From assembly GCA_014584695.1 (NCBI GenBank), contig JACTMI010000015.1, positions 1-64,000 of the forward strand: a stretch of 64,000 bases of DNA. The letters run 5' to 3'. This DNA is from Acidobacteriota bacterium (GTDB lineage: Bacteria; Acidobacteriota; Thermoanaerobaculia; Multivoradales; JAGPDF01). Of this stretch, positions 15,440 to 36,324 are shown piece by piece. The translations under genes were made by a program, and so were the position numbers. The notes beneath the pieces were generated by a model, which was given only the letters and a program-made list of their open reading frames with translations, was not told where the DNA came from and did no database searches. The stretch's first letter is position 1, and every line of letters starts with the position of its first letter.

Positions 15440-18277
15440 ATGGGAAGTCCTGCCCGGCTCGTCGCCTCGCTCGCCGCCGTGGCCGTCACCTGCCCCGGGG
15501 CGTCCTCCCTGCGCGCCGCTCCCCCCACCGCGACCCTGGTACGCGACATCGGGCAGGGGGTTACTCCGTCGGTCTCGGATTATTTCCTCGCGCCCATGGA
15601 GGGATTCGTACTCTTCGGCGGTTTCGCCTGGTTCTGGGCCGACGACGGCATCCACGGTCGAGAGCTCTGGCGCACCGACGGCACGGCGGCTGGGACGAGC
15701 CTATTCGTCGACCTGTGCCCCGGCGCATGTGGAGCCGTTTCCCTAGGGAGTCAGGTTCGCCTCGCCTCGGCGCTCGGACGTCTCTATTTCGGAGCGGACG
15801 ACGGCGTCCACGGTTCGGAGCTCTGGTCCACTGACGGCACGGTACCCGGGACGCACCTGGTGCGCGACATCACCCCAGGTCTGCGCGGCAGCAGCCCGCA
15901 TGCATTCACGGTCACCTCCACCCACATCTACTTCCGAACTCTGGAACCGGACTTTTCCAGCCGTCTCTGGATCACGGACGGGACGGCGACCGGCACGCGA
16001 CCATTCGACAGTCCACAGCCTTGGTGGTACTGGGGCTCCAGATCGGTCGGGCCCTTGGCGTTCTTCAGCTACTCGGGTTCGTTGTGGCGCAGCGATGGCA
16101 CAGCGGCGGGCAGCTTCGAGCTTTCTTCTCATGCCTCGGGCACTTCGACGCTTTCGAGGGACGCCCCTTTCCAGGTGCTAGGTGAGCGCGTGATCTTTCC
16201 CGCGAATCCTACGGGCGGACCTTCGCAGGGAGAGCTGTGGGCCTCGGATGGCACACCCGAGGGGACGACCGCACTCGCTGCCGGCTTCGAGCCTCGTCAT
16301 GCCTTGCGACGAGGCTCGATGCTCGACGTGGTTGCCATCGATGACCTCAGTCAGTGGTTCGTGACCACGACCGACGGCTTCTCGGCTTCCACCGTACCGA
16401 TCTCCCTGCCGCCGGATCACTACCTGGCGGCGATTTCGGGGCGGTGGGCAACCCTCGGCAACGCCCTCTACTTCTCCGTCTACGATGCAGAACACGGTAA
16501 CGAACCGTGGAAGTTCGAGAACAACGTCGCCTCCAGGATCATCGACCTCTTCCCGGGGCCGGGCTCTTCGATGGGGTTCGATGAAGGGGACATCTGGAAC
16601 GGGAACGAAGAGTTCTTCGTAACGTTAGGCCAGTGGGTCCTCTTCTCAGCCGACGATGGCATCCACGGGCGCGAGCTCTGGAGAACGGACGGAACGGCGG
16701 CCGGCACAACTCTGGTGGCCGACCTGACTCCGGGTCCCGCAGGAACGTCGCTCGACTACTTCAACGCCTGGATCGAGTTCACGGCTCTTGACGGTCGCCT
16801 CCTGTTCAAGACTCGCTCGGCGCCGGAGGGAGTCCGCCTCTGGGCCACGGACGGCACCGCGGCCGGCACCGAGATGCTTGCCGTCATCGACGGATTCCGC
16901 TCGGCGTTCGAGCCGCCGGAGCTCTCGGTGCCGATCTACGGGAGTCCGCCACTCTGGTGCGCGACTCCGGCCGGTCGCGGGCTCTTTTTCGGCGCGGAAG
17001 ACGGCACGACTGGCAACGAGCCCTGGTTCACCGATGCCACCAGCGGAGCGACCGAGCAGGTCGCCGATCTGCTGGCCGGCCGGGATTGGAGCTACCCGCG
17101 AGCCTGCAGCCCCATCGGCGGTCGAGTCGTCTGGACCGCGGGGGCGGGGGAGAGCTCTCCCTGGGGGCAGGGGCCGTTCGCTTCCTCGGGCGCGCCGGGC
17201 GACCTGATTTCTCTGGGCTCGAACGAAGGCGACTCGCAGTCCATGCCGAGAACCTACTTCGGGGAAGAGCTGATTCTGGCGGGAGAGCACCTCCTGGCGA
17301 CCGATGGCACGCTCGAGGGGACGCGGACACTGTCGGCGAACAACGGCTGGGGGTACTTCGAGGAGCCGCTTGCTTTCGGCGGTCAGCTGCTGATGCGCGC
17401 CTGGGGCGGCGAAGGGGAGGGACCGCAGCTGATCACCGTCGACGGCATTACCGGCACGGTCGTACCCATCGAGCCCGAACAGCTCGAGGCGAGCCTTGCG
17501 CCCGAACGGCTGACCGCGGTCGGCGATCTCGTGCTCTTCACCTCCTGGCAACCGGCGCAGGGAAGTGAGCTCTGGCGCACCGACGGCACGCCCGAGGGCA
17601 CTTTCCTGGTGCGCGACATCCTGCCGGGCCCGGGTAGCGCCATCCCCGAGGAGCCGTACTTCATCGCCGAACCACCGCCCGTCGACCGGCTGGTCGTCCT
17701 CGGCGACTTCGCCTACTTCGCCGCCGACGATGGGGTGCGTGGCGCGGAGCTCTGGCGCAGCGACGGGACCTTCGCGGGGACGCAGCTCGTCGCCGACCTC
17801 TTTCCCGGCCCCTACCCGTCACTGCCGCGCGATCTGGTGCGGGTGGGGGACGTGCTGTTCTTCACCGCCGAATCGCCGCAGCACGGGCGCGAGATCTGGC
17901 GGCTCGATGCGTCCGGTCGATCCGGTCCTGCGGTCGCCGACCTGGTGCCGGGGGCCGAGTCCTCGGTGCCGCAAGAGCTGACCGCGGTCGGGGACTTCCT
18001 CTACTTCTCGGCCTGGACGCCGGGATCGGGCCGCGAGGTCTGGCGCCAGCGCGGCAGCTCCTCGGCGCCGTTCGCGCCCGAGCTGTGGGCCGATCTCGCT
18101 CCGGGCCCGCTCTCTTCGAGCCCGCTGGTTTTTCGCGCCGTCGGGGCCGACGTCTACACCGTCGCCAACGACGGCGTCCACGGCTTCGAGCTCTGGAAGC
18201 TGCGCGACCCCGACGTCCTCTTCGCCGACGACTTCGAGTCGAGCGGCTTGGCGCTCTGGGCGGCGGTGGAGCCGTAG
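15440..18277 (+). CDS. Secreted ELWxxDGT-repeat protein, copy 1
   Basis: 945 residues with a signal peptide (about 1-27). The mature part is a string of repeats of roughly 50-70 residues, each containing a variant of ELWRTDGTxxGT usually followed by LVxDLxPG. At least ten clear copies are visible, with degenerate ones near the C-terminus. This is the ELWxxDGT family, probably an extracellular beta-propeller-like or elongated structure of unknown function. It ends with FADDFESSGLALWAAVEP. A Shine-Dalgarno (GGAGG, 15429-15433) precedes the ATG and a TACACT box lies about 40 nt upstream. The gene is followed after 63 bp by a paralogue. Confidence 0.88.
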   Translation: MGSPARLVASLAAVAVTCPGASSLRAAPPTATLVRDIGQGVTPSVSDYFLAPMEGFVLFGGFAWFWADDGIHGRELWRTDGTAAGTSLFVDLCPGACGAVSLGSQVRLASALGRLYFGADDGVHGSELWSTDGTVPGTHLVRDITPGLRGSSPHAFTVTSTHIYFRTLEPDFSSRLWITDGTATGTRPFDSPQPWWYWGSRSVGPLAFFSYSGSLWRSDGTAAGSFELSSHASGTSTLSRDAPFQVLGERVIFPANPTGGPSQGELWASDGTPEGTTALAAGFEPRHALRRGSMLDVVAIDDLSQWFVTTTDGFSASTVPISLPPDHYLAAISGRWATLGNALYFSVYDAEHGNEPWKFENNVASRIIDLFPGPGSSMGFDEGDIWNGNEEFFVTLGQWVLFSADDGIHGRELWRTDGTAAGTTLVADLTPGPAGTSLDYFNAWIEFTALDGRLLFKTRSAPEGVRLWATDGTAAGTEMLAVIDGFRSAFEPPELSVPIYGSPPLWCATPAGRGLFFGAEDGTTGNEPWFTDATSGATEQVADLLAGRDWSYPRACSPIGGRVVWTAGAGESSPWGQGPFASSGAPGDLISLGSNEGDSQSMPRTYFGEELILAGEHLLATDGTLEGTRTLSANNGWGYFEEPLAFGGQLLMRAWGGEGEGPQLITVDGITGTVVPIEPEQLEASLAPERLTAVGDLVLFTSWQPAQGSELWRTDGTPEGTFLVRDILPGPGSAIPEEPYFIAEPPPVDRLVVLGDFAYFAADDGVRGAELWRSDGTFAGTQLVADLFPGPYPSLPRDLVRVGDVLFFTAESPQHGREIWRLDASGRSGPAVADLVPGAESSVPQELTAVGDFLYFSAWTPGSGREVWRQRGSSSAPFAPELWADLAPGPLSSSPLVFRAVGADVYTVANDGVHGFELWKLRDPDVLFADDFESSGLALWAAVEP
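18091..18277 (+). repeat. 3' block nearly identical to 20941-21127
   Basis: The last 187 bp of ELWxxDGT copy 1, including the stop codon, match the last 187 bp of copy 2 with about 8 substitutions by my hand count and no indel. The upstream parts of the two genes are clearly more diverged. This suggests recent gene conversion or strong constraint on the C-terminal tail. Confidence 0.85.
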
Positions 18278-18340
18278 GGGATCTGTCAGGAGAGCCAGGC
18301 CATGGTTCGCGCTGGTCGCATTCTCGCTTGGAGGTGGAGC

Positions 18341-21127
18341 ATGGGAAGCACTCGATTCGTCCCGCTGGCGATGGCGTTCGTGCTCCTCGCTGGTGTCGCC
18401 GCACCCGCTGAACCCCAGGTCGTCGCGACGATGGTCGCGGACGTCGGGCAGGGGATTCCGCGCTCGGACGGCTTCCCCGGCGACCGGCCCGTGACGCTGC
18501 CCGCGGTGCTCGACGGCTGGTCCTATTTCTACGGCAACGACGGCATCCACGGCCTCGAGCTCTGGCGCTCCGACGGCACTCCCGGCGGGACGCACATGGT
18601 GCGGGACATCTGCCCGGGCCGCTGCAGCGCCGCGTCGATTTTCGAGCAACTCGCCATCGCGCGGGCGGGCGACCGGGTCTTCTTCGCCGCCGACGACGGC
18701 GTCCACGGCGCCGAGCTCTGGGTCACCGACGGCAGCGTGAGCGGCACGCAGCTCGTCGCCGATCTCCGCCCTGGGCTGCGCGGCAGCCGGCCGCGCTCGT
18801 TCCAAGAGGTGGGAAATCGGCTCTTCTTCCAGGCCGGGCCCTTCTCCGAGCCGCCGGCGCTCTGGGTCAGCGACGGCACACCACTCGGGACGCTGGAGGT
18901 CAAGCCGGCGATTGGGATCGGCGCCACCGCCGAGTTGGGCGGAAAGCTCGTCTTCGGCGCCGAGCAGCCACAGGACGGCCTCTGGATTTCCGACGGCACG
19001 CCCGCCGGAACGATCCGGATCTCGACCGTGCAGCCCTGGCAGAACAGCTGGCCCGAGGGCGCCGCCTTCCGCGTGCTGGGCTCCTTGCTGGTGTTTCAGG
19101 GTCGGGACACGCCGGGTCCCAGCGAACCGACGCTCTGGGTGACCGACGGCACGGCCGAAGGGACCCAGGAGCTGGCGCCGCTCGCCACGCCGTACGGCTT
19201 CCAGGTCTGCGGCGACCGGCTCTTCTTCACGCTCTTGACCACCAACAGCTGGGAGCTCTGGAGCACGCAGGGAACCCCCGCGACCACGCTGCCGATCCCG
19301 ATGCCCGGCGAAGCTAGCCTGTCTTTCGGCTGGCAGACCTGCGCCGGCGAGATCTTTGTCTTCGTGGGCCACGATCCCGCCACCGGGCACGAGCCTTGGA
19401 GCACGGACGGCGCGAGCGTGGCCCCTCTGGGGGATCTGCGCCCCGGGCCAGACTCCTCGATCGGACTCACCGCGGAGGGCTACTTCCAGGCGAGTGGCCC
19501 CTTCTTCACTTCGCTCGGAGAGCGGGCGCTGCTGCTGGCCGACGACGGCGTCCACGGGCTCGAACCGTGGGTCACGGACGGCACGCCGGGCGGCACGCAG
19601 CTGGTCCTCGACTCGATTCCCGGACCTGTCGGCCTGGTCACCGCTCCCTGGTCGCGCTCTCTGCCCAAGCCCCGTCTCGGCGACTCGGTGCTCTACCAGG
19701 AGCGCGCCGCCGACGGCAGCTTGCGCCTCTGGAAGAGCGACGGCACGGCCGCGGGCACCTCGGTCGTGGACGTACTCGAGAGCCAACCGTCGATGCTCGC
19801 GGTCACTGATGGGGCCTCCCTCTACACCAAGCCTCTGCTCAGCTGTTTCGCGCCGACGGGTGGAGGCCTCGTGTTTTCCGCCGACGATGGCGCCAGCGGC
19901 CGTGAGCTCTGGTTCACCGACGGCACCGAAGCCGGGACCTCGCAAGTCGCCGACCTCCTGCCGGGCCCCCTCGGCAGCTACCCGGGCCTCTGCCGCCCCT
20001 ACGGCGGGCGGCTGCTCTTCACCCATGGAACAGAGGAGCTGCAGGGCTCGGCCAACGACTTGCGCGCGCTCGATCCGGGGACAGCTGGAGTCGAGCTTCT
20101 CGCAAGTGGCGCCGGCGCGGCCCCCGAAGTCGACTCCTCAGCGCCTGTCGAGGGCGAACTCCTGCTAGCGCTGGGGAGTATCGTCCGGACGGACGGGACT
20201 CCCGGTGGCACGCAACTCCTCGGCTCCGCCTCGACCTGGCCGATAGGCGTCGCAACGAGCGGTGAACATTCCTACATCGGCGCGCTCGGGTTGGAGCGTT
20301 ACGACCCAGTCGATGGAACGATCTCCCCGCTCACCGGCGAGGTCGAACCTTGGCGCTTCCCGGTCCGGTTGACCCCCTTCGCTGGCGATCTCCTCTTCTT
20401 CGCCTACGACCCCGCGACCGGCCAGGAGCTCTGGCGCTCCGACGGGACGCCCGAGGGCACCGGGCTGGTCGTCGATCTGCGGCCCGGCCCCAGCTCGGCG
20501 ATCGAAGAGGATGTCGTCGAGCTCACGCGCAGCTCGCTGTCGCGCATCGTGGCGTTCGGCGGCGTCGCGCTCTTCGCCGCCGACGACGGTGTCGCGGGGG
20601 AGGAGGTCTGGCGCACCGACGGCACCGCGGCGGGCACCGCGCAAGTCGCCGACGTCTTCTCCGGGCCCCATCCCTCCTCGCCACGCGAGCTGACGCGCGC
20701 CGGCCAGCTCGTCTTCTGGAGCGCCGAGCACCCCGCGACCGGGCGCGAGCTCTGGTACACCGCGGACGGCGCGAGCGCCCAGCTCGCGGCCGACCTCGTC
20801 CCTGGAGTGGGCTCCTCGGTGCCGCAGAACCTCACGGCGATCCGGGGCGAGCTCTGGTTCAGCGCCTGGACCCCCGCGCACGGCCGCGAGCCCTGGCGCC
20901 TGCGCCCGGGAGCCGGCGGGCTGGTCGCCGAGCGGCTCGCCGACATCGCTCCCGGCCCGCTCTCTTCGAGCCCGCTGGTATTTCGCGCCGTCGGCGCCGA
21001 CGTCTACACCGTCGCCAACGACGGCGTCCACGGCTTCGAGCTCTGGAAGCTGCGCGATCCCGACGTCCTCTTCGCCGACGACTTCGAGTCGAGCGGCTTG
21101 GCGCTCTGGGCGGCGCCGGAGCCGTAG
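18341..21127 (+). CDS. Secreted ELWxxDGT-repeat protein, copy 2
   Basis: 928 residues, colinear paralogue of the preceding gene. It has a signal peptide (about 1-24), then ELWRSDGTPGGT-type repeats through the whole mature chain and the same tail (FADDFESSGLALWAAPEP). The region before the start (CTTGGAGGTG then GCATGGGAAG) resembles that of copy 1, so regulatory and coding sequence were duplicated together. I use ATG 18341 rather than the in-frame ATG at 18302 because of the matching Shine-Dalgarno context. Function unknown; probably exported or surface-exposed. No separate promoter was recognised in the 63-bp gap. Confidence 0.88.
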   Translation: MGSTRFVPLAMAFVLLAGVAAPAEPQVVATMVADVGQGIPRSDGFPGDRPVTLPAVLDGWSYFYGNDGIHGLELWRSDGTPGGTHMVRDICPGRCSAASIFEQLAIARAGDRVFFAADDGVHGAELWVTDGSVSGTQLVADLRPGLRGSRPRSFQEVGNRLFFQAGPFSEPPALWVSDGTPLGTLEVKPAIGIGATAELGGKLVFGAEQPQDGLWISDGTPAGTIRISTVQPWQNSWPEGAAFRVLGSLLVFQGRDTPGPSEPTLWVTDGTAEGTQELAPLATPYGFQVCGDRLFFTLLTTNSWELWSTQGTPATTLPIPMPGEASLSFGWQTCAGEIFVFVGHDPATGHEPWSTDGASVAPLGDLRPGPDSSIGLTAEGYFQASGPFFTSLGERALLLADDGVHGLEPWVTDGTPGGTQLVLDSIPGPVGLVTAPWSRSLPKPRLGDSVLYQERAADGSLRLWKSDGTAAGTSVVDVLESQPSMLAVTDGASLYTKPLLSCFAPTGGGLVFSADDGASGRELWFTDGTEAGTSQVADLLPGPLGSYPGLCRPYGGRLLFTHGTEELQGSANDLRALDPGTAGVELLASGAGAAPEVDSSAPVEGELLLALGSIVRTDGTPGGTQLLGSASTWPIGVATSGEHSYIGALGLERYDPVDGTISPLTGEVEPWRFPVRLTPFAGDLLFFAYDPATGQELWRSDGTPEGTGLVVDLRPGPSSAIEEDVVELTRSSLSRIVAFGGVALFAADDGVAGEEVWRTDGTAAGTAQVADVFSGPHPSSPRELTRAGQLVFWSAEHPATGRELWYTADGASAQLAADLVPGVGSSVPQNLTAIRGELWFSAWTPAHGREPWRLRPGAGGLVAERLADIAPGPLSSSPLVFRAVGADVYTVANDGVHGFELWKLRDPDVLFADDFESSGLALWAAPEP
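20941..21127 (+). repeat. 3' block nearly identical to 18091-18277
   Basis: Partner of the copy 1 block. It encodes the last ELWK-type repeat and the DFESSG tail. Confidence 0.85.
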
Positions 21128-30485: not shown

Positions 30486-32669
30486 CTACCGGCGCAGCAG
30501 GCTCTTGCCGTCGAGCGGGACCGCCGACTCGACGCCGTAGAGATCGAGCAGCGTCGGCATCACGTCCGCCATGTAGGGCTTCTCGGCGAGCGTCAGGTGG
30601 CGGTTGGAGAACAGGATGCCGTCGACCAGCGGCGGATAGACCGAGCAGTGATCCGCGCTCCAGACGTCGAGGTTCGGCTCGACCACCCGCTTGGCGACGA
30701 TGCCGAGCGTGTCCTGCCAGCCGACCCGGTAGCCCGAGGCGTTGGCCGGGAAGAGGTCGGGAATGAGCTCGGGGTCGTAGACGCCGTAGGCCTCGTCGCG
30801 GGTGAAGACGTAGGCCACCGGATGCTCGCCGGTCTCGGGGTCGACATAGCGCGGCAGGCGGTCCTTGATCTCCGCGACCAGCTGCTGGTACGGCTCGCCC
30901 GGCGGCACGATCCCCTGCCCCTCGCGCCCCTGGAGGTTGACGTAGATGTTGCCGAGCCCCATGGCGTAGGCGCGGGTCTTCGACCAGTCGACGCTCTGGA
31001 AGAACGTCCCCTTGTCGAACAGGTCCTCGAGGTTGGCGCGCTGGTCGGACTCGCCCTGGAGCACCAGGTAACCCTCGTGCGCCAGCCAGGTGTTGTAGTT
31101 CATCGTCCGCCGCCAGGGCGCGAAGCCGTGGTCCGAGACGACGAACAGGTACGCGTCCTGCGGCATCCGCTCGAGCACTTCGCCGACGATGCGGTCCATG
31201 TCCTGGTAGGCGCGCAAGATCGAGCCGCCGTACCGGGCGCCGTCCTCGGGCGTGTGGAGCGGGTGCTCGGGGTCGATGTGTCGCCACATCACGTGCTGCA
31301 CCCGGTCGGTGAACTCGAAGTAGTGGAAGTAGACGTCCCAGTCGTCGGCGAGCAGGCCGGCGAGCATTTTCTCGTCGGTCTCGACGGTGAAGTCGGTGTC
31401 CTCGAAGAAGACGTCGTCGTCGATCGTGCCGCCCTTGATCGACCAGGTGTCGACCATCCAGCCGATGGTCTTGAACAGGCCGAACCGCCGGACCAGATCG
31501 CCCGCGAAGGAGCGGGGCGTGGTGACGTCGACGATCGGCGGCAGGTTCTCGGGGTCGAACTGGATCGGCGACAGGTAGACCCTCACCTCGGGCTCGATCG
31601 ACAGCACGCGGAAGCGTCCGATGCCGGTCAGCTTGATCAGCGGGTTGAACGGGAAGACGAAGCGAACCCAGGGGCTCCACTCGCCCGCGGCCAGCGCCAG
31701 CCGGGCGCCGGAGACCTCGATGCCGAGCCGCGACTTGTCCGCCGCGACGTCGAAGCGGATCGGGATCCGGATGTAGTCGGACTGCCCCGGGAAGAGCTTG
31801 TTCGGCGGCCCCTGGAGCGAGGCGTCGATGATGCCCTTGTTGTCGACCAGCTCGACGATCTCGATCGACACCTCGTTGCCGCTGCGCGGCTGGAAGAAGA
31901 GCTCCGAGGTGAAGTAGAACGGCTTGCCGATCCGGAACGACAGATCCGGCGTGCCGAGACCGGCGAGCAGCTCGCCGTGCGGATAGGGCTCGGGTGGGAA
32001 GGTGACCGGCATGCGCATCACCCGCACCTTCTTGCCGGCGGCGCCGAGCACCTCCCAGAAGGTCTCGCCCTGCTGCCGATTGATGGCGAGCGGCCGCTGG
32101 GCGGGCAGCATGGTCGCCGCCACCCAGCCCACGCCGCCGCCGGCCACGGCGCCGAACAGCAGCGCGATCGCCGCGGCCTTGGCGGGGCGGGCGCGGAACA
32201 GCCGCAGCGCCACCAGCACCAGCGCGAAGACCAGGGCTCCCGCGCCGAGGCCGAACACCCAGCCGTTGCGCTCGCCGTAGAGGAAGGGCACCGTGGTCTC
32301 GTCGAACGCCGCGAAGCTCGGCCGGTAGGTCGCGGTGTCGCGCTTGAGGAAGTCGAAGATGGCGTGGCGACCCGGGTTCAGGCCGGTCGAGAAGGTCGAC
32401 CAGGAGACCGGGGTCTGCGAGGGGATCGTCGAGCGCAGCGGCGAGAAGGTCCCCTCGTCCCGCAGCCGGGCCAGATTCGGCAGCTTGCCTTCGTCCATCC
32501 ACTGCGCGGTCATCGCCGCGTCGGCGCCGTCGAAACCGAGCACGACGACGCGCGGGGCACCCCCGTCCGAGGCGGCCGAGCCGGGAGCCGCAGTCGGCCA
32601 GAGGGTCGCGGCGGCCAACGCCAGCGCGGCGGAGAGGGTGCGGCCGGGGGTCCGTCGCTTCGTCGTCAC
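30486..32669 (-). CDS. Membrane alkaline-phosphatase-superfamily phosphodiesterase
   Basis: 727 residues. Signal sequence (about 1-33), first metal-ligand Asp47 (LGFDGAD), nucleophile region TPVSWSTFSTG (81-95), two TM helices inserted at about 137-187, a beta-rich insert (about 240-380), then D455-RVQ-H459 and SDHG (D513, H514), and a last His in SADHCSV. All ligand positions of the type I phosphodiesterase/nucleotide pyrophosphatase group are kept, so it is probably active. The substrate is unknown. GTG 32669 is chosen; GAGGAG lies about 9 nt upstream. It precedes envC on the same strand. Confidence 0.85.
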   Translation of the reverse strand: MTTKRRTPGRTLSAALALAAATLWPTAAPGSAASDGGAPRVVVLGFDGADAAMTAQWMDEGKLPNLARLRDEGTFSPLRSTIPSQTPVSWSTFSTGLNPGRHAIFDFLKRDTATYRPSFAAFDETTVPFLYGERNGWVFGLGAGALVFALVLVALRLFRARPAKAAAIALLFGAVAGGGVGWVAATMLPAQRPLAINRQQGETFWEVLGAAGKKVRVMRMPVTFPPEPYPHGELLAGLGTPDLSFRIGKPFYFTSELFFQPRSGNEVSIEIVELVDNKGIIDASLQGPPNKLFPGQSDYIRIPIRFDVAADKSRLGIEVSGARLALAAGEWSPWVRFVFPFNPLIKLTGIGRFRVLSIEPEVRVYLSPIQFDPENLPPIVDVTTPRSFAGDLVRRFGLFKTIGWMVDTWSIKGGTIDDDVFFEDTDFTVETDEKMLAGLLADDWDVYFHYFEFTDRVQHVMWRHIDPEHPLHTPEDGARYGGSILRAYQDMDRIVGEVLERMPQDAYLFVVSDHGFAPWRRTMNYNTWLAHEGYLVLQGESDQRANLEDLFDKGTFFQSVDWSKTRAYAMGLGNIYVNLQGREGQGIVPPGEPYQQLVAEIKDRLPRYVDPETGEHPVAYVFTRDEAYGVYDPELIPDLFPANASGYRVGWQDTLGIVAKRVVEPNLDVWSADHCSVYPPLVDGILFSNRHLTLAEKPYMADVMPTLLDLYGVESAVPLDGKSLLRR

Positions 32670-32795
32670 GGCTGAGGCTCCTCGGGGTGTCGAAGGGTCG
32701 GTCCCGCGCGCTCGGCTCGGCACGGGTCGGCGGATCCTAGCAAACGGCCCGCGAGGCCGGCCCGCTCTCCCGCTCACCTCCGGCCGGCGCCGACG

Positions 32796-32801
32796 TAGAC
32801 T
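32796..32801 (+). promoter_or_regulatory. Predicted -10 box upstream of sigma-like gene
   Basis: TAGACT followed by 6 nt and GTG at 32808. By the rule seen elsewhere in the window transcription would begin at that GTG, which opens an 18-codon frame overlapping the next gene. Confidence 0.4.
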
Positions 32802-32807
32802 CCCGCC

Positions 32808-32864
32808 GTGCTTCACACCCGAGAGCCTGGGGCGGGCGCCGGCCGGCGGCGGCGGAATGGCTGA
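32808..32864 (+). CDS. Possible 18-codon leaderless leader peptide
   Basis: The GTG lies 6 nt after TAGACT and opens a short frame encoding MLHTREPGAGAGRRRRNG, ending at TGA 32862-32864. The frame overlaps the start of the sigma-like gene (ATG 32857) by 8 bp in another frame. Four successive CGG Arg codons precede the end. The downstream ATG has no clear Shine-Dalgarno, so re-initiation after this peptide is plausible. It may equally be a chance frame. Confidence 0.3.
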   Translation: MLHTREPGAGAGRRRRNG

Positions 32865-33873
32865 AGCTCCGCGACTCGACCCCGCGCTCGGCGCCTTCGT
32901 CGACTCGCGGAGCGAAGCGGATGCCGACGACCGCCTGGGCGCGCTGCTCGAAGAGGTGGCGCGGCCGGTGGTGGCGCGGGTCGTGCGCGCGCAGCTCGCG
33001 GGGGTGCCGGAATCCGACCGCGAGGACGTCGCCGCCGGGGCGCTCCTGCGGTTGACCGAGCGGCTGCGCGCCCTGCGCGCGGGCGAGGCCACGGAGACGA
33101 TCGAGAGCCTGCGCGCCTACGCGATCGTCACCGCCCAGAACGGCTGCCGAGCTTTCCTGCGCGCCCGCCAGCCGGAGCGGACCCGCCTCGGCAATCAGGT
33201 CCGCTACCTGCTCGGGCACGATCCCGCCCTCGCCCGTTGGCCGGGCGCCGACGGCGCCTGGTTGGCCGGTCTGGCCGGCTGGCGCGGCCGCGCCGCCGAG
33301 CGACCCCGCCCCGACCTCGACGGCCTGCCGCTCGAACGCGCCGCGGCCGAGCTCGAGCTCGGCGAGCTCATTCGACGCCTGCTGCTGCTCCGCGGCGGCC
33401 CCTGGCCGGTCCTCGACTTGGTCGCCGCGCTCGCCGAGCTGCGCGGGGTCCGGGACCAACCGCTCGTCTCGCTGACCGAACCCGCCGCCGACGAGGACGA
33501 GGCCGCCCCTGGCCAGGAGCCGGTCGAGACCAGGCCCGGGCCCCTGCGCGAGGCGGAGGACCGTCAGTTCCTGAGCCGGATCTGGGCCGAGGTCCGCGAC
33601 CTCCCCCGGCGCCAGCGGGTGGCGCTGCTGCTCAATCTGCGCGACGCCGGCGGCGGCGACATGCTGTCGCTGCTGCCGGTGACCGGCCTGGCGAGTGCCG
33701 GCGAAGTCGCCCGCGTGCTCGACCTCCCCGCCGCGGAGCTGGCCGAGCTGTGGCCGCGGCTGCCGCTCGAGGACCGCGAGATCGCGGCCCTGCTCCAGGC
33801 GACGCCGAGGCAGGTCATCAACCTGCGCAAGAGCGCCCGCGAGCGGCTCGCCCGCCGGACGCGGCACCCCTGA
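32857..33873 (+). CDS. Atypical sigma-70-like (ECF-like) factor
   Basis: 338 residues. The N-terminal part resembles sigma region 2 (VPESDREDVAAGALLRLTERLRAL). The C-terminal part resembles region 4 (DLPRRQRVALLLNL, then LEDREIAALLQATPRQVINLRKSARERLARR, a helix-turn-helix ending in basic residues). About 190 residues of Ala/Pro/Glu-rich sequence, far longer than the usual ECF linker, lie between them. The next gene, 92 bp downstream, encodes a membrane protein with the size and layout of an anti-sigma factor. Call based on motif placement, not on strong similarity. Confidence 0.6.
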   Translation: MAEAPRLDPALGAFVDSRSEADADDRLGALLEEVARPVVARVVRAQLAGVPESDREDVAAGALLRLTERLRALRAGEATETIESLRAYAIVTAQNGCRAFLRARQPERTRLGNQVRYLLGHDPALARWPGADGAWLAGLAGWRGRAAERPRPDLDGLPLERAAAELELGELIRRLLLLRGGPWPVLDLVAALAELRGVRDQPLVSLTEPAADEDEAAPGQEPVETRPGPLREAEDRQFLSRIWAEVRDLPRRQRVALLLNLRDAGGGDMLSLLPVTGLASAGEVARVLDLPAAELAELWPRLPLEDREIAALLQATPRQVINLRKSARERLARRTRHP

Positions 33874-33965: not shown

Positions 33966-34442
33966 ATGACCCCGAGGAGCGACGTACCCGAGCCGGTCGA
34001 CCTGGCCGCCCAGGCCCGCCTGGCCGCGTTCCTGCGCGGCGAGCTGGCCCAGGCCGAGGTCGAGGCGCCGAGCTACGACGAGCTGGAGGCCTACGTTGAC
34101 GGCCAGCTCGATCCTGCCGACGCCGAGGCGTTCGCCACCCGCCTCGAGGACGATCCGCTGCTCGCCGCCGAAGTCGCCGACCTCGAGCGCCTGCGCGAGC
34201 TACTGGCGCGGCGCCGGGGAGCCGGGGCGGCTCCGCCCAGCCGGGCGGTTCCGCGCTGGTTCTGGGCGGCCGCCGCGACACTCGCGGTCGCCGTGGCCGG
34301 GACGGTTGTCGAGCGCTCCCTCGCGCCGCACCGTCCCGTCGCCTCCCCTCAGATGGCAGCGGTCGAGAGCGAAGGGTCGGCGGAGACGATCTTCGGCGAC
34401 GGCTTCGAATCGGGCGGCATCGACGCCTGGCAGAGTCCCTGA
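33966..34442 (+). CDS. Anti-sigma-like single-pass membrane protein with FESGG tail
   Basis: 158 residues. The cytoplasmic part (1-95) includes DELEAYVDGQLDPADAEAFATRLEDDP, the putative zinc-finger/anti-sigma-type helix pattern seen in RsiW-like proteins but without the His/Cys ligands. One TM helix follows (about 97-116) and then a short extracytoplasmic segment ending TIFGDGFESGGIDAWQSP. That tail closely resembles the ends of the two secreted ELWxxDGT proteins 13-16 kb upstream. Gene order suggests it controls the sigma-like factor before it. In-frame GTG codons slightly upstream are possible alternative starts. Confidence 0.6.
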   Translation: MTPRSDVPEPVDLAAQARLAAFLRGELAQAEVEAPSYDELEAYVDGQLDPADAEAFATRLEDDPLLAAEVADLERLRELLARRRGAGAAPPSRAVPRWFWAAAATLAVAVAGTVVERSLAPHRPVASPQMAAVESEGSAETIFGDGFESGGIDAWQSP

Positions 34443-34515: not shown

Positions 34516-36324
34516 TCAGAGATAGCCGAGCGAGCGCAAGCTCTCGAGGTATTCCTCACCGGCTCCCCCTGGCGCCGGACCGGGCCGCCGCTCGCCGAAG
34601 GTCGCCACCACGGCCGGCGCCGACGGCCAGCGACAGACCGGCGGCGGCTCCGGGAGCTGACGGCTCTGCGGCAGCCCGGCGGCCCGGAGCAACAGGGCTC
34701 CCAAGGCCTCGGGCGCGATCACTCCAGCCGCGACACCCTGGCAGCCCCGCCGCCAGAGGAAGCTTCGCCCCTCTCCACCGCCGCGCCGGCCCGGATCGAA
34801 GACGACCAGGATCGTCGTGACCTCCTCCGAGAGCTCGCCGATCCAGCCGTCGACCTCGTGCAGCTGGATGCGCACCAGATCGGCAAGCGAGACGTCGCCC
34901 CCAGTCCAGTCCTCGGCGAGGATGTCGAGCGACGGCTGGTAGAGGGCGACCACCCGCGGCGTTCCGGTCACCCCCAGGCTCCGGACCGCCGCCGCGCGAT
35001 AGAAACGGTCCGGCAGGATCGCGCGGTCGAGCGCCCGGCGCCAGGCCGCGGGGGGCAGCGCCGCCTCGAGCGGCGCCGCGAACGGCCCGGCGACCGCCTC
35101 CCGCGCCAGACCCTGCAGCTCCACCAGCCGCTCCGGCGGCTCGACCGCCCCCTCCGCGCTCCCCTGCAAGAGCTGGTAGGCGCCGTGGGCGACGACCAGG
35201 CCGGGCAGGGCTTCGGCCGGGTAGGTGGCCCACCAGCCCACCGCCACGACCGGCTCTCCGCCACGGGAGGCGAGCTCCCAGACCGTCGGCGCCCGCCGGC
35301 GATGGGAGAGCAGCGGCCGGTACTCGGCCAGCCCGAGCGGGAGAGCGATCCGCTGCCACCAGGGGCGCCAGGGGCCATTGCGGGCGAGCGGCGTCGCCAG
35401 ACCGAGCGGCCGAAAGGAGTCGAGCGCCACGACACCATGGCCCGACGGCGGCAGCCCGGTGGCGAGGGTGGTCCAGAACGCCGCCGGCGGCGCGGAGGCG
35501 TCGCGCCGGTGGCGTAACGTCACGCCGCCGCGCGCCGCCCGATCGGCGAGCGCCGGCAGATCCCCGCGCTGGAGCAGGTAGTCGATTTCTTCGGGCAGCA
35601 CGCCGTCGACGCCGACCACCACCAGTCGCTCCCCCGGCGCGCGCGGCAGCGACACCGGCGGCCGGGGCTGGTCCGGCTGCGGCACCGCGGCGGCGACCAG
35701 GGCGAGGGCGCCGACGCTGGCGGCGACTCCGAGCGCCAGGTGCCGCCGCGACACGAACCGCTCGGCCGGCGTCCAGCGCGTCAGCCGGATCTCGAAGGCG
35801 AGCAGCGCATCGGCCAGCAGCTTGGCGATCCAGGCTCCGGCGAGCGCGATGGCGAGCACCGCCAGCGCCCGCTCGGGGCGCGGCAGGCCGACCAGCAGCC
35901 GCCAGCCCCGCGCGACGCCCGCCCCCACCGCCAGCGCCGCGGCCACGGTCGCGGTGGCGAGCCGCAGTGGCTCGATGGTCGTCCGCGGCAGCTGCCGCAA
36001 GCCGGCCAGGAAGAGCGCGGCGAGCGCCAGGAAGCCGCTGCCGGCGGCGAGCGCCAGCGGCAAGAACAGGTGGCCGAACAGGACCAGCAGGTCGACCGGC
36101 GCCGCCGCGAACAGGCGGTTGGCCGCGCCCAGGGCCAGTGCGTTGAGCGCCGCCAGGAGGCTCCCGACCAGCAGGCCGACCTTGGCGGCGAGAGAGAGCA
36201 GAGCGCGGAACGGTGGCCTGGGCGCCAGTGCGTCCTGGAGCAGGAGCCGCTCGAAACGGTGCGACAGGTAGCCGAGCCGCTGCAGCTCGCCCCGGACCCG
36301 CGCGAGGTCGGCCGGCTCCTTCAC
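34516..36324 (-). CDS. Membrane alkaline-phosphatase-superfamily homologue, ligands degenerate
   Basis: 602 residues. Six or so TM helices fill residues 40-215. The C-terminal two thirds have the superfamily fold: VVGVDGVLPEEID (D240) and APPAAFWTTLATGLPPSGHG with a Thr near 285. The later metal positions differ: D467-ILA-E471 where DxxxH is expected, and FDPG (509-512) where SDHG is expected. No C-terminal ligand His is apparent. It is therefore probably catalytically inactive or uses another mechanism. The protein ends EYLESLRSLGYL, and LQRLGYL occurs again near the N-terminus. It overlaps the start of nothing and is followed by the terminator of the convergent pair. Confidence 0.7.
   Translation of the reverse strand: MKEPADLARVRGELQRLGYLSHRFERLLLQDALAPRPPFRALLSLAAKVGLLVGSLLAALNALALGAANRLFAAAPVDLLVLFGHLFLPLALAAGSGFLALAALFLAGLRQLPRTTIEPLRLATATVAAALAVGAGVARGWRLLVGLPRPERALAVLAIALAGAWIAKLLADALLAFEIRLTRWTPAERFVSRRHLALGVAASVGALALVAAAVPQPDQPRPPVSLPRAPGERLVVVGVDGVLPEEIDYLLQRGDLPALADRAARGGVTLRHRRDASAPPAAFWTTLATGLPPSGHGVVALDSFRPLGLATPLARNGPWRPWWQRIALPLGLAEYRPLLSHRRRAPTVWELASRGGEPVVAVGWWATYPAEALPGLVVAHGAYQLLQGSAEGAVEPPERLVELQGLAREAVAGPFAAPLEAALPPAAWRRALDRAILPDRFYRAAAVRSLGVTGTPRVVALYQPSLDILAEDWTGGDVSLADLVRIQLHEVDGWIGELSEEVTTILVVFDPGRRGGGEGRSFLWRRGCQGVAAGVIAPEALGALLLRAAGLPQSRQLPEPPPVCRWPSAPAVVATFGERRPGPAPGGAGEEYLESLRSLGYL

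Follow-up and report, generated by a model that had tools for sequence, protein, structure and literature searches.

An apparent C-terminal sorting or anchoring tag on unrelated exported proteins and an anti-sigma-like protein in one order of Acidobacteriota

In one order of Acidobacteriota, between dozens and more than 100 exported proteins per genome share a short peptide at their extreme C-terminus although they are otherwise unrelated, and this peptide is apparently an undescribed sorting or anchoring tag. The sorting or anchoring reading is suggested by the unrelated and exported nature of the carriers, the abrupt limits of the conserved stretch, its fixed distance to the stop codon and its restriction to a lineage. 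We consider it fairly probable that the peptide acts as a C-terminal sorting or anchoring tag, that the occupancy of its receptor is read by an anti-sigma-like protein bearing the same tag and that the tag derives from a jelly-roll domain.

Tagged proteins in the window and anatomy of the tag

Three proteins carry the tail in the window, that is, in the whole stretch of 64,000 nucleotides that was analysed (72% G+C), all encoded on the forward strand. The anti-sigma-like protein, with 158 amino acids, is encoded at 33966..34442 (ATG at 33966, stop codon at 34440-34442) and ends in ...AETIFGDGFESGGIDAWQSP, with the tag IFGDGFESGGIDAWQSP and the stop codon at 34389..34442 (HMM E=1.6e-7). Two secreted ELWxxDGT repeat proteins, both with a signal peptide and a C-terminal tag, are encoded in tandem. 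ELWxxDGT protein 1 (15440..18277; TIGR04534, E=4.8e-149) ends in ...DVLFADDFESSGLALWAAVEP and its tag LFADDFESSGLALWAAVEP plus stop codon spans 18218..18277 (HMM E=8.9e-8), while its paralogue, ELWxxDGT protein 2 (18302..21127), ends in ...AAPEP and carries the tag LFADDFESSGLALWAAPEP, which with the stop codon spans 21068..21127 (HMM E=1.4e-7); the ends of the two genes read FADDFESSGLALWAAVEP and FADDFESSGLALWAAPEP, respectively. The FESGG-x-W-type tail that the original prediction had attributed to these three proteins was confirmed by coordinates, by translation and by a six-frame scan of the window, which returned only the three tag termini and one unrelated chance match.

The carriers had also been described as otherwise unrelated, which holds for the anti-sigma-like protein when compared to the ELWxxDGT proteins but not for the latter two, which are paralogues sharing 45% identity overall. 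Since these two genes are near-identical over the final ~180 bp up to the stop codon (18098-18277 and 20948-21127, with 95-98% DNA identity), the window holds two independent occurrences of the tag rather than three. On the sequence evidence, this is 3'-end gene conversion between the tandem ELWxxDGT genes.

The tag has the consensus LFADGFESGDTSAWSxTVP and can be expressed as the pattern [IL]F-x-DGFE[ST]G-[DN]xxxxW-Sxx(V)P. In a set of 157 distinct tails numbered from the Asp residue, information content stays below 0.3 bits from position -20 to position -4, after which the order is I/L, F, x, D, G, F, E, S/T, G, D/N, T, S, A, W and S, with F, D, F, E, G and W conserved at 99-100%. The conserved stretch covers about 19 residues, nothing is conserved upstream of it, and none of the 157 tails shows a hydrophobic run or a basic end. 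The distance to the stop codon is exactly 16 residues in 85 of 192 matches, and a terminal Pro is found in 102 of the 157 tails. No Pfam or NCBIfam model matched over the tail in the tagged proteins scanned, and a literature search found no paper on a DGFESG-type tag and nothing relevant on choice-of-anchor proteins or on PEP-CTERM in Acidobacteriota. Besides, the Ser codons within the tags are of both AGY and TCN types and the DNA similarity between unrelated tagged genes stops at or near the stop codon, as expected for selection acting on the peptide. The plain spread of a DNA cassette was rejected on these two grounds, even though copying of the 3' end took place in the ELWxxDGT pair.

Occurrence of the tag in the source genome and across the phylum

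A search of the source genome, 4.35 Mb in 48 contigs, with the DNA pattern encoding DGFE[ST]G gave 29 matches against 0 for the reversed-pattern control, and 26 of them lie 12-20 amino acids ahead of a stop codon (binomial ~1e-33, assuming that matches spread evenly over 500-aa proteins); the remaining three comprise two internal matches and one directly after a signal peptide. Chance or composition as the origin of the tag was ruled out by the reversed-pattern controls. A 22-position profile returned 66 matches at E<0.01, a count that is partly circular because the profile was made from the source genome's own tails, which is not the case for the initial pattern search. Reading of 43 further profile matches, some of them weaker, added 36 C-terminal tails to the earlier 30, bringing the genome to about 66 C-terminally tagged proteins, nearly all of them with export signals. 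The phenomenon is far more extensive than the three proteins of the window, and two expectations of the original prediction, namely that the motif would not be rare in the proteome and that it would be tied to exported proteins, were borne out. A Sec-type signal was recognized on nearly all tagged proteins with a placeable start, using a hydrophobicity heuristic instead of a trained predictor, and one tagged protein, which starts with MCDTTRRGFLMG and contains RRGFLMG, appears Tat-like.

The carriers have unrelated folds and include M36, S8 and M12B peptidases, FG-GAP and Calx-beta proteins, ELWxxDGT proteins, MauG-type cytochromes, endonuclease/phosphatase-like proteins and choice-of-anchor Q proteins, several of which bear the tag directly after the domain. 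Moreover, the NCBIfam models closest to the tagged M36 peptidases and to the rhombotarget-like proteins describe families that depend on the T9SS, rhombosortase or myxosortase. The position of the tag on M36, rhombotarget-like and choice-of-anchor Q proteins indicates that it holds the slot of known sorting signals.

Two additional features of the source genome were observed. The motif stands right behind the signal peptide in two proteins that have no C-terminal tag, encoded on contigs L011 (near 4211, reverse strand) and L110 (near 4721, forward strand). In addition, nine of the 13 TIGR02999-type ECF sigma genes have a tag gene less than 5 kb away (p ~7e-6), and the combination of such a sigma gene with a Ser/Thr kinase gene, often located between the other two, and a gene for a tagged secreted protein recurs in several places (e.g., L003:4279-9676, L012:3961-8831 and L025:1428-6268). 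This proximity points to regulation of the tagged proteins and not to machinery.

In a survey of 247 genomes of the phylum, the motif remained near background, mostly with 0-2 occurrences, except in the order to which the window belongs, where the longer pattern was found in 49 of 72 genomes, with up to 143 copies and 0 for the control. Within one family of this order, the 21 genomes of genus g3 (e.g., G089, G108 and G184) have 0 tags, compared to 32-95 in three sister genera; no clear choice-of-anchor Q domain was found in eight genomes of the tagless genus tested. Among the matches listed for GTDB genomes, the C-terminal tag belongs mostly to Thermoanaerobaculia and other Acidobacteriota, while in Chloroflexi, Actinomycetota, Patescibacteria and archaea the motif opens a long domain. 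In two genomes of the window's order (G260 and G303), relatives of the cargo domain are present and tags are absent, and in low-copy families the motif is mostly the start of a complete jelly-roll domain, such that domain history may explain part of the distribution of the tag.

Jelly-roll origin, known sorting systems and alternative explanations

A jelly-roll domain of ~190-260 amino acids opens with the same peptide as the tag, over ~18 residues; the complete domain stands at the C-terminus of proteins in family f75 and is internal in Chloroflexi. An all-beta fold was predicted for this domain (mean pLDDT 87), and it weakly matches Cip1 and a CBM22 xylanase (3zyp, E=0.019; 4xup, E=0.03). 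The N-terminal segments of these jelly-roll modules weakly match DxFESG..W, whereas the window proteins and most tagged proteins stop after the first strand-like segment. Past the stop codons of the source-genome tails, no jelly-roll remainder was found in any frame, although positive controls were detected, which rules out broken jelly-roll genes. The tag is probably a detached N-terminal segment of the jelly-roll domain that has been retained alone.

The PEP-CTERM/exosortase, GlyGly-CTERM/rhombosortase, MYXO-CTERM and LPXTG/sortase systems likewise rely on a short C-terminal homology found on many unrelated exported proteins, and the general hallmark of a C-terminal sorting signal, a location at the extreme C-terminus of many unrelated exported proteins per genome, was also found for the tag. 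PEP-CTERM-like systems even share its cargo families (M36 peptidases, rhombotarget-like and choice-of-anchor proteins), but their signals have a transmembrane segment and basic terminal residues that serve cleavage at the membrane; the tag lacks both, and its last residue is Pro or follows shortly after the Trp. The initial comparison with PEP-CTERM or Por tails is therefore retained in that the tag occupies the slot of a sorting signal, and abandoned in respect of the PEP-CTERM type. The Por secretion tail of the type IX secretion system (T9SS) resembles the tag in being a C-terminal signal without a transmembrane segment, on Sec-exported proteins and with overlapping M36 cargo. T9SS signals are described in two papers as immunoglobulin-like beta-sandwich domains (PMC4804311, PMC11285876), unlike a tag of only ~19 residues. 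SprA (PF14349) was absent from 16 genomes of the order, including the source genome (Flavobacteriales control, E=7.7e-156); on the criterion of SprA, type IX secretion is excluded.

Secretins were also considered in the search for partners. The source genome encodes a T2SS-type secretin (L173:9969-12509) whose C-terminus matches cohesin (E=1.2e-5). Most of the secretin homologues examined within the order are extended at the C-terminus in a similar way, and the tagless genus g3 keeps both this secretin and its extension. The secretin apparently lost along with the tags in that genus is, by its neighbourhood, PilQ of type IV pili and not the T2SS-type secretin. PilQ was missing from the 10 genomes of the genus tested, and G260 and G303 retain PilQ without tags; the joint absence of PilQ and tags in the genus proves little because it represents one evolutionary event. 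A partner search covering SprA, the T2SS, PilQ and the neighbours of the anti-sigma-like gene yielded neither a receptor nor a translocon or processing enzyme, which counts against a sorting pathway. The tagless genomes G260 and G303, the N-terminal motif in L011 and L110 and a degenerate tag on the anti-sigma-like relatives in G253 and G254 also speak against a sorting tag.

The type II secretion system offers an alternative, since a T2SS-like cluster (F, E, secretin and pseudopilins) is present in these genomes and the tag could be its signal. This system exports folded proteins from both the Sec and the Tat routes, which would fit the Tat-like cargo. To our knowledge, T2SS substrates elsewhere have no linear C-terminal motif in common, and together with the retention of the secretin in the tagless genus this makes such a role improbable. 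The cohesin match on the same secretin is one of the observations that would agree with a non-covalent docking peptide, in which the tag, as a detached jelly-roll cap, would insert into a surface-exposed receptor of the cap-less jelly-roll or cohesin-like type. Docking would be a concrete form of anchoring for which a free C-terminus and cleavage are irrelevant, and it is consistent with the identity between the tag and the start of a predicted all-beta domain with weak Cip1/CBM22 similarity, as well as with the L011 and L110 proteins, which have no jelly roll and carry the tag at the N-terminus of their mature form. Nevertheless, the fixed 16-residue distance to the stop codon and the terminal Pro suggest that the very end matters, and the tagless genus likewise keeps the C-terminal extension of the secretin, so that we regard docking as unlikely.

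The same identity with the start of the jelly-roll domain would be expected if the tag were a structural or evolutionary leftover of truncated domains whose first strand persists unrecognised, and 3' gene ends do get copied, as in the two ELWxxDGT genes. Against a leftover stand the near-invariant residues, the fixed end, the unrelated carriers and the lack of a domain remainder downstream, in addition to the persistence of the tag on the anti-sigma-like protein despite a diverging linker and the clean absence from the entire genus g3; we find this explanation very hard to sustain.

The anti-sigma-like protein and a proposed pathway

The anti-sigma-like protein is composed of a putative cytoplasmic anti-sigma domain, one transmembrane helix at approximately residues 95-115 and a periplasmic part of ~42 amino acids. 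It matches zf-HC2 at or just over the Pfam cut-off (E=1.5e-4) and the NCBIfam antisigma model NF052375 under the cut-off of that model (E=1.6e-5). Directly upstream, at 32857..33873 on the forward strand, lies the gene of its probable sigma-factor partner (338 aa, start picked by eye), with a weak Sigma70_r2 match under the cut-off (E=0.11). PF01663 genes (type I phosphodiesterase / nucleotide pyrophosphatase) at 30486-33092 and 34516-36324 flank this pair, an arrangement conserved in several genomes of the family. The sigma-like and anti-sigma-like genes also occur together in unrelated neighbourhoods, and a conserved neighbour as the partner enzyme was rejected, since only the sigma-like gene travels along with the anti-sigma-like gene.

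A search of 72 genomes of the order with residues 1-140 of the anti-sigma-like protein, from which the tail had been removed, recovered relatives in six other genomes, all of family f1. Four of them (G255, G256, G258 and G259) end in a recognisable tag, the tag being degenerate in the other two (G253 and G254). Ends that read DSFESGDLAAW, DSFEGGTTDSW, DSFEGGTTGHW or DGFEAGTSAGW persist among these relatives despite a diverged linker. Because the periplasmic part of the family otherwise consists of a linker variable in length and sequence, the tag is its only conserved sensor candidate. This hints that the anti-sigma-like protein may sense the occupancy of the tag receptor, by which the cell would monitor the sorting pathway. 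A related link is described in a study on Porphyromonas gingivalis, in which PorA, a protein with a secretion-system C-terminal signal, participates in sigma-factor signalling through PorXY-SigP (PMC7712824). The two cases are alike in tying a protein with a C-terminal signal to sigma signalling and differ in that the tag is proposed to be on the anti-sigma-like membrane protein itself, in that there is no common sequence and in that signalling is deduced here.

In the proposed mechanism, tagged proteins would reach the periplasm by Sec or Tat, where an envelope factor would bind the tag by its two Phe residues, its Glu and its Trp, and the bound cargo would be retained at the cell surface or handed to it. 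The anti-sigma-like protein would present this tag on its periplasmic side, as its sole conserved sensor element, and the receptor would be free when cargo is low and saturated or damaged when cargo is high, its occupancy thereby controlling the partner sigma-like factor. The tag itself would have arisen as a detached N-terminal segment of the jelly-roll domain. It is possible, and we propose it tentatively, that this order has an undescribed envelope sorting or surface-anchoring pathway based on a short, soluble C-terminal peptide that stems from the first strand of a jelly roll, in which an anti-sigma factor shows the cargo tag so that sigma activity reports the load.

In a little-cultured order, as many as about 140 proteins per genome bear the tag, peptidases and large repeat proteins of the surface type among them. 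C-terminal tags recognized earlier have repeatedly led to new secretion or anchoring systems, as with exosortase, rhombosortase and the T9SS. Comparing the tagless genus with its tagged sister genera offers a clean way to look for the machinery, and the tag-bearing anti-sigma-like protein supplies a genetic handle.
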